Source: an uncultured Desulfobacterales bacterium
GTDB taxonomy: Bacteria > Desulfobacterota > Desulfobacteria > Desulfobacterales > UBA11574
Direction of reading: 5' to 3'
DNA: 37,248 nt
Assembly (NCBI GenBank): GCA_937998305.1
Contig: CALLDL010000215.1
Span: 1 to 37,248 of the forward strand
Shown here: piece after piece, positions 12,102-37,248 of the stretch
Numbering within the stretch: the first letter of the stretch is position 1
Layout: every line of letters begins with the position of its first letter
Program-made: the position numbers and the translations under genes
Notes under the pieces: generated by a model
The model's database searches: none
Told to the model about the DNA's origin: nothing
The model's input: the letters and a program-made list of their open reading frames with translations, nothing else

Positions 12102-12310
12102 AAGAGTTTGAAGTGAGCTATAGTTAAAAAAGGTTGTGCCCGTCGGCCCGTTATGCCGGTTTGCCCGTAATTTAATAACGGCCAACCGGCTAATCCCGCA
12201 TTGCGGGACTAACCAGAAATAGGCACTTTTAACTTGTACGGCTTTAAGAAAAACAGCCCCTTCCAGGGGTTATATCAAAGCCGGGTCCTCTGTGTCCGGA
12301 TTCTTTACTT
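12102..12310. repeat. Intergenic repeat family A, copy A2
   Basis: Second copy of the repeat at 2-308, lacking that copy's 100-base internal insertion. It contains the perfect hairpin TCCCGC-att-GCGGGA where A1 has a GGTTAACC run instead. It ends GGATTCTTTACT two bases before the lptE ATG at 12312, so it forms the whole leader of lptE. Its last 30 bases also resemble the bases just before folK (30816-30845). Confidence 0.8.
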
Positions 12311-12861: not shown

Positions 12862-12918
12862 AAAAAAGCGCATCGTACAAAGAATGTAGAAATTTCATTT
12901 TGTACGTTGCGCTTTTTT
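12862..12918. terminator. Bidirectional terminator between lptE and rpsT
   Basis: AAAAAAGCGCA-t-CGTACAAA pairs with TTTGTACG-t-TGCGCTTTTTT around a loop of about 18 bases. The A-run on one side and the T-run on the other let it work in both directions, fitting the convergent genes. Confidence 0.9.
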
Positions 12919-13299: not shown

Positions 13300-13382
13300 C
13301 TTCAGGTATAACTAAATTTTTGCTGAAAGATCACGCCAAAGGCGGATAAAACTCGTGAATAAAGGCTCGTAATGAAAGAACC
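13300..13382. repeat. Intergenic repeat family C, partial copy C1
   Basis: The stretch CTGAAAGATCACGCCAAAGG and its flanks match the left part of the element at 24731-24947. About 83 bases match with few differences, from CTTCAG to AATGAAAGAA. Weak similarity extends about 20 bases further left in both. C1 lacks the right inverted end found in C2, so it is a fragment or a half element. It lies between the rpsT promoter and murJ. Confidence 0.7.
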
Positions 13383-13426
13383 TGCCCGGGCTATTAATAA
13401 AGATCTCTGTTTTAGCAGGGAGTTTC

Positions 13427-15369: not shown

Positions 15370-15640
15370 ATCATTCCCCAAAGAGTTGGTCGATTAATAA
15401 GGGGCCAAGGATTCAAGGATTCGAGTGAAAAAGCTTTAAAAACAAATTTTTAAAAAGATCGAGGAAAAAGGGCAGAAAAACTCCAATGTTAACGTCATCT
15501 CTCCGAACTGTATGCTCTACCCTCCGGCCTGTAAGCCCTACGGGCTGGAAGCGGAGCAGGAAGCTGAATCAACGCGTTTGCAATCACTTGACCCCTTGAA
15601 TCCTCGAGCCCTTTTCTCCAACTAATTTGGAGAAGAACCA
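15370..15640. repeat. Intergenic repeat family B, copy B1
   Basis: Starts 2 bases after the FtsB-like stop and fills the spacer to the TPR gene. It matches 22994-23270. Left arm words (CCAAGGATTCAAGGATTCGAG) face inverted right arm words (CCTTGAATCCTCGAG). The ends CCAAAGAGTTGG and CCAACTAATTTGG also form an inverted pair. B1 holds a 65-base insert (15501-15565) absent from B2. The insert is a GC-rich hairpin around AGCCC-tac-GGGCT with outer CTCCG/CGGAG. B1 lacks about 55 A/T-rich bases present in B2. Confidence 0.85.
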
Positions 15641-15663
15641 AAAAAAGAAAGGTCCAAAAAAAA

Positions 15664-15942
15664 TTGAGTAAAGACGATGTCTTTTATACCCGGACAATGG
15701 CAAAAGTTTATGCTGATCAGGGTAATTTATCAAAAGCCGCCGAAATTTACAGATACCTTCTAGAATGCGAACCCGAACGCCAGGACCTTATGGATTCACT
15801 TTCTGAAATTGAGAGGAAACTCAATGAAAAATCGCCGGATGATCTTATCAAACTGTTCAGCAGGTGGGTTGATCTTCTGCTTAAGTATCATAACGTTCAA
15901 AAACTTATGAGGTTTAGAAATTATTTCAGAGACAGCAAGTGA
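15664..15942 (+). CDS. Small TPR-repeat protein
   Basis: The 92 residues include one clear tetratricopeptide repeat (TRTMAKVYADQGNLSKAAEIY, about 10-30) followed by helices and a basic end (LMRFRNYFRDSK). No signal peptide or membrane helix is seen, so it is probably a cytoplasmic adaptor; the partner is unknown. The start is TTG at 15664 with AAGG about 10 bases upstream. The next ATG at 15697 is inside the TPR, so the TTG is the better choice. It lies between repeat B1 and a hairpin that begins 3 bases after its stop. Confidence 0.75.
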   Translation: MSKDDVFYTRTMAKVYADQGNLSKAAEIYRYLLECEPERQDLMDSLSEIERKLNEKSPDDLIKLFSRWVDLLLKYHNVQKLMRFRNYFRDSK

Positions 15943-15945
15943 ATG

Positions 15946-15983
15946 GTACGTGTTCACGGGGAAGCAAACCCCGTGAACAGTAC
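15946..15983. repeat. 38-base palindrome related to the element at 36952-37171
   Basis: GTACGTGTTCACGGGG pairs with CCCCGTGAACAGTAC around a 7-base loop. The arm shares the GTACGTGTTCA-GGGG core with the 25-base ends of the large palindromic element near the right edge. It looks like an internally deleted or solo form of it. It starts 3 bases after the TPR gene stop and has no T-run, so it is not a classical terminator. Confidence 0.75.
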
Positions 15984-16033
15984 AGTGAATGTATCGCCAA
16001 ATTTAAATCAATTTTTGGAGAAATGACAAACTC

Positions 16034-22993: not shown

Positions 22994-23270
22994 ATCATCT
23001 CCCAAAGAGCTGGTGGATTGATAAGGGGCCAAGGGTTCAAGGATTCAAGGGTTCGAGTGAAAAAGCTTTAAAAACAAATAAATAAAGATAATATCTTAAT
23101 CCTTGGAGTCACTTTCTTATAAGAACATATTTTTGAAAAGATCGATGAATAAGGGCAGAAAAAACTCCAATGTTAACGTCATCTGAATCAAAGCGTTTAC
23201 AATCACTTGATCCCTGGAATCCTTGAATCCTCGAATCCTTTTCTCCAAGTAATTTGGAGAGGAACCAAAA
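22994..23270. repeat. Intergenic repeat family B, copy B2
   Basis: Begins directly after the hslV stop codon and separates hslV from hslU. It matches B1 (15370-15640) over its arms. Left words are CAAGGGTTCAAGGATTCAAG and right words are CCTTGAATCCTCGAATCC, inverted to each other. It lacks the 65-base hairpin insert of B1 and has about 55 bases of A/T-rich sequence (about 23082-23138) missing in B1. Whether hslU is transcribed through it cannot be read from sequence. Confidence 0.85.
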
Positions 23271-24680: not shown

Positions 24681-24730
24681 CTAGTGTCCATCCATAAATG
24701 GTAAGAGTATAGCTTCTTGAAAATCGATCG

Positions 24731-24947
24731 CTTCAGATAGAGTTAAATTTTTTCCTGAAAGATCACGCCAAAGGCGGATAAAACTCGTGGATAACGGCTC
24801 GTAATGAAAAAACCGGTCTTATCTTTTGATAAGGGTAGGTGGTCAAAGACAATATATTCGCGTAACCTCATATCGATGAGGGTTTTTTCAAAACGATCCC
24901 TAATCCACTCAAACAGCTTCCAGAAAAAAACTTAACTCTATCTGAAG
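24731..24947. repeat. Family C palindromic element (MITE-like), copy C2
   Basis: Left end CTTCAGATAGAGTTAA (24731 on, about 31 bases) is inverted at the right end (24917-24947, TTAACTCTATCTGAAG) with few mismatches. The left half matches C1 at 13300-13382. The interior holds ACGCC-aaa-GGCG and the terminator at 24866-24888. No ORF is inside. It fills most of the hslU-argD spacer (24681-24985). Confidence 0.8.
24866..24888 (+). terminator. Intrinsic terminator after hslU, inside repeat C2
   Basis: CCTCAT pairs with ATGAGG around ATCG, followed by GTTTTTT. The compact stem, tetraloop and T-run fit a Rho-independent terminator on the plus strand. It lies inside the C2 element, so the element may bring termination with it. 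Confidence 0.8.
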
Positions 24948-24985
24948 CTCCTTTAACATCAAGATATAAGATCAAGAGACCTGAA

Positions 24986-36833: not shown

Positions 36834-36951
36834 GGAAGGAGAATTAGAAAAACGAATATCTAATTAATTTCTGTATCAAAAAGCATTTCCGCTGAAATGA
36901 ACGTTATGCCCTATGAAGAGGCGGAAAGTATCATAAAAAAACAGTCAAAAA

Positions 36952-37171
36952 TTTGTACGTGTTCAGGGGGTGCACTCCACCGCTTCACTCCGGTGTCTAC
37001 GTGTCTGGTCATTTCAACAACTTAGCAGCGGTGCCATTCCTGCCCCCTCCGCGTTCTCCCGCGAAAAGCATGCGGGAGCCGCGGTCTCCTCCACTGCTAA
37101 ATCATTGAATTGACGAAGTCACTCCGCCAATATCGTTATTCGGGGAAGTGCACCCCCTGAACACGTACAAA
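36952..37171. mobile_element. 220-bp nested palindrome with perfect 25-bp inverted ends (MITE-like)
   Basis: The left end (36952-36976, beginning TTTGTACGTGTTCAGGGG) is exactly inverted at 37147-37171. Inside, a second imperfect pair (TTCAACAACTTAGCAGCGG against CCACTGCTAAATCATTGAA) surrounds a GC-rich core hairpin CTCCCGC-gaaaagcat-GCGGGAG flanked by CCGCG/CGCGG. No ORF is inside. The arm core recurs at 15946-15983. The flanks 36834-36951 and 37172-37248 hold no gene I can see. Confidence 0.8.
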
Positions 37172-37248
37172 AATTGTACTTGCTCCTTGTATATGCAGAA
37201 AAGAACAGAATATGGTCGGACACGGATGTGACAGACCGTTGGAAACAT

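Follow-up and report, generated by a model that had tools for sequence, protein, structure and literature searches.

The 214-bp palindrome at positions 36955 to 37168 (+ strand) of the window, by which we mean the whole 37,248-nt stretch of DNA that we analysed, adds a clear new case to a well-known class of genomic parasites. Based on sequence comparison, we consider it very probable (roughly 0.92) that this element is a MITE of IS66 type, moved in trans by an IS66-family transposase, and that its full copies later shrink to solo forms. We assign the element to this type because it shares a 16-base end with a complete IS66 element that has an 8-bp duplication. In this scheme, a DDE transposase of the IS66 family, provided in trans, would bind both ends and insert the element with an 8-bp stagger. 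Full copies, which span 214 to 246 bp, would later lose their interior to leave a solo form of 38 to 40 bp that still has its target duplication, a step that is supported at one site and presumed at the others; this loss would be possible because the long form has short direct repeats (CACGGGG) near both ends. Complementarity of the outer arms may be maintained by conversion between them, by template switching or otherwise, or by the need for both ends to fit a single transposase.

A first-pass annotation of the window had described a nested palindrome of 220 bp at 36952 to 37171 with perfect 25-base inverted ends. The palindrome is real: bases 36952 to 36976 and 37147 to 37171 are exact reverse complements, and the top entry in the list of inverted pairs of the window was a 40-nt pair (36943 to 36982 and 37141 to 37180) with 85% complementarity. 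Its outer limits, however, had been drawn too wide, as the boundaries of other copies set the element at 36955 to 37168, running from GTAC to GTAC (GTACGTGTTCAGGGGG...CCCCCTGAACACGTAC), and the outermost TTT and AAA of the 25-base ends are target bases outside the element. The inverted ends, the fold and matches elsewhere in the genome likewise mark this stretch as a full-length copy. The strand folds at -106.1 kcal/mol as compared with -60.8 kcal/mol (sd 4.3) in 200 dinucleotide shuffles (z = -10.5), none of which was as stable. The first 16 bases of the left outer arm (36955 to 36976, + strand) fit the IS66-type end GTACGTGTTCASGGGG, and the right outer arm (37147 to 37168, - strand) is complementary to the left and covaries with it among copies. 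Between them lies a GC-rich core hairpin (37049 to 37084, + strand) that is almost unchanged across genera in the alignment, where this helix (helix 5) is paired in 99.0% of cells.

Bacterial MITEs are shorter than 500 bp, have no transposase gene and end in terminal inverted repeats; the element, with its 214 bp and 22-base paired arms, agrees with this description in size and structure. It is also dispersed as such elements are. Its own genome is a 3.35-Mb MAG (239 contigs, 88.55% completeness). It holds 22 exact copies of GTACGTGTTCA as compared with 3 of a reversed control pattern, and blast with the element gave 45 matches, among them 15 in which 169 or more of the 215 query bases are covered. 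One of the full copies in this genome (L014) is orthologous to a copy in a related genome (L055, G003). In total, 18 of the 146 genomes subjected to blast had a match, own genome included (17 of the 145 others); 15 of these belong to the host's family and include every one of the 5 genomes of its genus, and the other 3 lie outside the family. Of the 22 stretches found by scanning named genomes with the core motif, 1 is labelled Actinomycetota and the other 21 come from MAGs that bear the label Desulfobacterales, Desulfobacteraceae or Deltaproteobacteria. The same motif had no match in the viral contigs scanned, and the whole element had none in the plasmid collection searched. We also compared 27 insertion points with open reading frames and found 8 within frames of 120 codons or longer, as compared with 16.3 expected, a result of little weight given that the controls are useless for short loci.

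The flanks of the copies carry target duplications of a fixed length. From 58 end pairs found in the loci we removed those that were nested or due to chance, those truncated at the end of a locus and one shorter than 118 bp, 14 in all, which left 44 copies. Flanking 8-bp repeats agreed at 8/8 in 16 of these and at 7/8 or better in 26; with shuffled partners, the mean was 0.6 and the maximum 6 (2000 shuffles). Exact flank matches were 8 bp long in 16 cases and 7 bp long in 2, with none at 4, 5, 6, 9 or 10 bp. The 214-bp copy itself is flanked by AAAAATTT (36947 to 36954) and AAAAATTG (37169 to 37176), which match at 7 of 8 bases. At the other extreme, 11 of the 44 copies match at 3/8 or less, including four of the five full copies examined from one genome (G124), the fifth being cut by a contig end. 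This genome is therefore not explained by the IS66-type account. The 16-base end occurs 80 times in its 2.3 Mb.

Empty sites were found for both insertions in the window, as is typical of bacterial MITEs along with the duplications. By comparison with relatives, the 214-bp copy interrupts the reading frame of a 4Fe-4S protein, which runs on the + strand from 36864 to 36954 (...MNVMPYEEAESIIKKQSKI) and resumes past the element at 37169 (KIVLAPCICRKEQNMVGHGCDRPLET) up to the contig end at 37248. The frame of the same kind of protein is uninterrupted in loci L276 to L279, and the L276 protein has Fer4 domains. About 170 N-terminal residues of this protein are absent from the window frame, so the target gene was already a fragment at the time of insertion or has since become one. 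The second insertion is a 38-bp palindrome at 15946 to 15983 (+ strand), found as the first-pass annotation had described it, with two ends and a 7-base centre. It lies between perfect 8-bp duplications (AGTGAATG at 15938 to 15945 and again at 15984 to 15991), and in genome G001 the flanks are joined over a single GGTGAATG. Most likely, this is the same kind of insertion as the 214-bp element, shrunk to its two ends.

To survey such short forms more widely, we scanned 24 genomes of the family with a short-form pattern and found 15 places. Two of them are ends of long copies, which leaves 13 free-standing forms. The free-standing forms had duplications of 8/8 in 6 cases, 7/8 in 3 and 6/8 in 4, raw figures obtained by trying 81 boundary offsets per site. 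Two of the 8/8 set (L217 and L218) are one orthologous insertion, and one form (L219) reaches 7/8 only with shifted bounds. At one orthologous site (L220/L021), genome G002 has a 39-bp short form with a 7/8 duplication, and our own genome (contig C221) retains the left 62 bp of a long element, the right end being gone along with some flank. The ancestor at this site most likely had the long form, since those 62 bp survive. The short form agrees with the suggestion that the 38-bp palindrome is a solo or internally deleted version, and at this one site there is direct support for shrinkage after insertion.

It is also conceivable that the 38-bp forms are a separate, self-moving miniature family and did not arise by deletion in place. 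The 13 free-standing forms, 6 of them with 8/8 duplications, would suit such a family, as would a 120-bp form whose junction is identical in L043 and L172, two separate sites in different genera. However, the arms and centre vary between short forms, the junction of the short form falls at the CACGGGG direct repeat of the long form, and the sister genome at the L220/L021 site kept the left part of a long element; we therefore consider a separate family unlikely. Shortened forms may be able to spread too. One further shortened form (L005) has another junction.

With regard to the transposase, 14 of the 389 genomes of the order contain the pattern GTACGTGTTCASGGGG, the 16-base end with C or G at base 12, and none contains its reversed control. 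Outside the host's family, four genomes carry one or two such ends each, five in all. One is on a complete IS66 element (G324), one is beside a C-terminal IS66 remnant (G037, L233), and in G110 the end lies upstream of an N-terminal remnant; the remaining two are in G286, where no IS66 protein was found within the 5 kb taken for each. The complete element (L260) has a single ORF and is 1565 bp long, with ends GTACGTGTTCACGGGG and GTAACCGTTCACGGGG, an 8/8 duplication (gtatcttt) and a protein with DDE_Tnp_IS66 (PF03050) and DUF6444 (PF20042) domains. One of its ends fits the pattern and is the same as that of the window copy except at base 12, and the other agrees at 13 of 16 bases. Among the 34 IS66 loci scanned, 8 had both ends together with an 8/8 duplication, and PMC3281130 lists 8-bp duplications for two IS66 elements, ISPpa5a and ISPpa7. 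In end sequence and in duplication length, then, the MITE resembles single-ORF members of the IS66 family. It differs from them in having no transposase and in arms that pair over 22 bases, whereas the ends of IS66 elements agree at 12 to 16 of 16 bases.

Closer to the host, a matching end pair was found in only one of 14 stretches with IS66 loci of nearer relatives. This element, in G018 of the host's family, is 1718 bp long, encodes a 462-residue protein (PF03050, PF20042), has ends GTACGTATTCAGGGGG and GTAATTGTTCAGGGGG and has no duplication (3/8). Because the G018 genome gave no blast hit to the MITE, the resemblance does not extend beyond the ends. Around the nearest relatives of the G018 protein (L124 to L127), RTTCASGGGG stands at both sides in all four and an 8/8 duplication in three.

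These observations uphold the proposal of a non-autonomous transposon moved by an unseen transposase, in that the element is multi-copy with fixed ends, 8-bp duplications and empty sites, and matching ends are found on IS66 elements elsewhere. A transposase with matching ends had been proposed as a check, and the search succeeded in other genomes but not in the host or its relatives of the same genus: the PF03050 profile had no match in our own genome (G000) and none in its four congeners, and it was present in 40 of the 96 genomes searched. A search for proteins like P0001 gave a match in 3 of 14 carrier genomes, the one in G014 being to a broken relative with 52% identity, and none in the other 11, which include G010 (97% complete) and G124. 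Repeated IS elements are often lost from MAG assemblies, and the absence of a transposase from carriers is therefore weak evidence. An IS66 transposase in the same genome is the usual companion of such a MITE and no strict requirement, since it may disappear once the copies are dispersed.

A mover from some other transposase family, whose ends look alike by chance, would account for the fact that no IS66 transposase was found in our own genome, its congeners, or G010, G019 and G124, each of which has many copies. Such a coincidence is hard to square with the 16-base end standing at a complete IS66 element and at a C-terminal and an N-terminal remnant in other families of the order, or with complete IS66 elements having the same 8-bp duplication length, and we give this reading a slim chance. 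The possibility that the sequence is merely a local palindrome without mobility is negligible. The first-pass annotation had said that a lack of other copies of the end, together with the lack of a transcript, would leave only this explanation; the 45 matches in our own genome, the target duplications and the empty sites refute it.

The other possibility raised was a structured RNA; in this reading, the sequence would be a structured or a regulatory RNA maintained for the sake of its fold. The very stable fold (z -10.5) is what such an RNA would show, as are paired changes in the outer helix, where 10 of 22 pairs have changes on both sides among 38 aligned copies (the divergent copies L063 and L064 were left out), a count that relatedness may inflate. 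Over the whole structure, 16 pairs are changed on both sides as compared with 7.7 in shuffles and 1 to 6 in slid controls, again with possible inflation by relatedness. In a second count, which kept 40 copies after removal of L130, L004 and some other pairs, the two arms of a copy matched at positions 12 to 22 in 400 out of 440 cells; shuffling the arms among copies gave 328 on average (sd 6, maximum 355). Paired changes in a DNA palindrome, however, need no selection on RNA. Moreover, Rfam searches of the window and the element yielded just two tRNAs, elsewhere in the window, no promoter-like or terminator-like site was found at the element, and insertion within a reading frame with precise target duplications speaks against an RNA gene. 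We consider an RNA kept for its fold very improbable.

The same paired changes bear on a further idea, that the end-to-end fold itself is under selection or repair. The IS66-type element would then have become a transposon that depends on its fold, and its palindrome would also be what reduces it to a solo pair of ends. Under this idea, outer arms beyond the transposase site would change in concert (G-C to C-G, C-G to T-A) because movement or copying passes through a folded single-strand or cruciform intermediate. A tree of the copies suggested repeated changes, 8 at pair 12 and 8 at pair 19, on a weak topology with 2 of 35 inner branches well supported, the interior being too short and conserved; a test with independent pairs gave one supported pair only. 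We hold the fold-dependent version to be distinctly unlikely.

Similar elements have been described in other hosts, and the likenesses below are of description, not sequence. According to the review PMC10969869, QMITE1 and QMITE2 of Coxiella burnetii, a different host, show a size series down to 39 bp in one family, a strong end-to-end fold and 7 to 9 bp duplications, and the Chunjie MITE of Geobacter uraniireducens is 178 to 235 bp long with dozens of copies, conserved ends and duplications. Within the limited literature searched, which included PMC9769881, PMC3281130, PMC10969869 and PMC3852290, we found no paper on an IS66-derived MITE. An orphan high-copy palindrome family, mostly in Desulfobacterales MAGs, can now be tied to a transposase family, and the exact bounds and duplications of the element are usable for annotation. 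The natural series of long, shortened, solo and empty states at orthologous sites lets the decay of a palindromic transposon be followed.

Several variants were seen among the copies. Three longer forms of 246 bp (L001:2382-2627, L007:1501-1746 and L174:207-452) have an extra GCCTGCCATGCAAGGCACGAGCGGGCAGG-like stretch, and a 343-bp form (L193:5731-6073) has a larger insert close to the same point. The divergent copies L063:1501-1715 (G021) and L064:1501-1714 (G128) have the same length and 8/8 duplications with another core hairpin. On contig C18 of our own genome, a 235-bp stretch (L004:1501-1735) has a similar left end, another interior (GTTCAAAGGTTCAGGGG...) and no duplication, and is perhaps a second family using related ends.

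The window holds other repeats. A second palindromic repeat (GGGGCCAAGGATTCAAGG...CTTGAATCCTCGA) has copies at 15399 to 15613 and 23020 to 23243 and is probably another mobile family; part of it (15500 to 15650) occurs in many places across the host's family. The stretch at 24730 to 24948 has 32-nt inverted ends (91%) 155 bp apart, shares 87 nt at 85% with 13314 to 13400, and looks like a further miniature element. Similar stretches (about 90%) lie 12 kb apart at 114 to 307 and 12114 to 12309. Finally, at 12862 to 12918, 20-nt arms that are 95% complementary stand 17 nt apart with a T run at the end, resembling a terminator.
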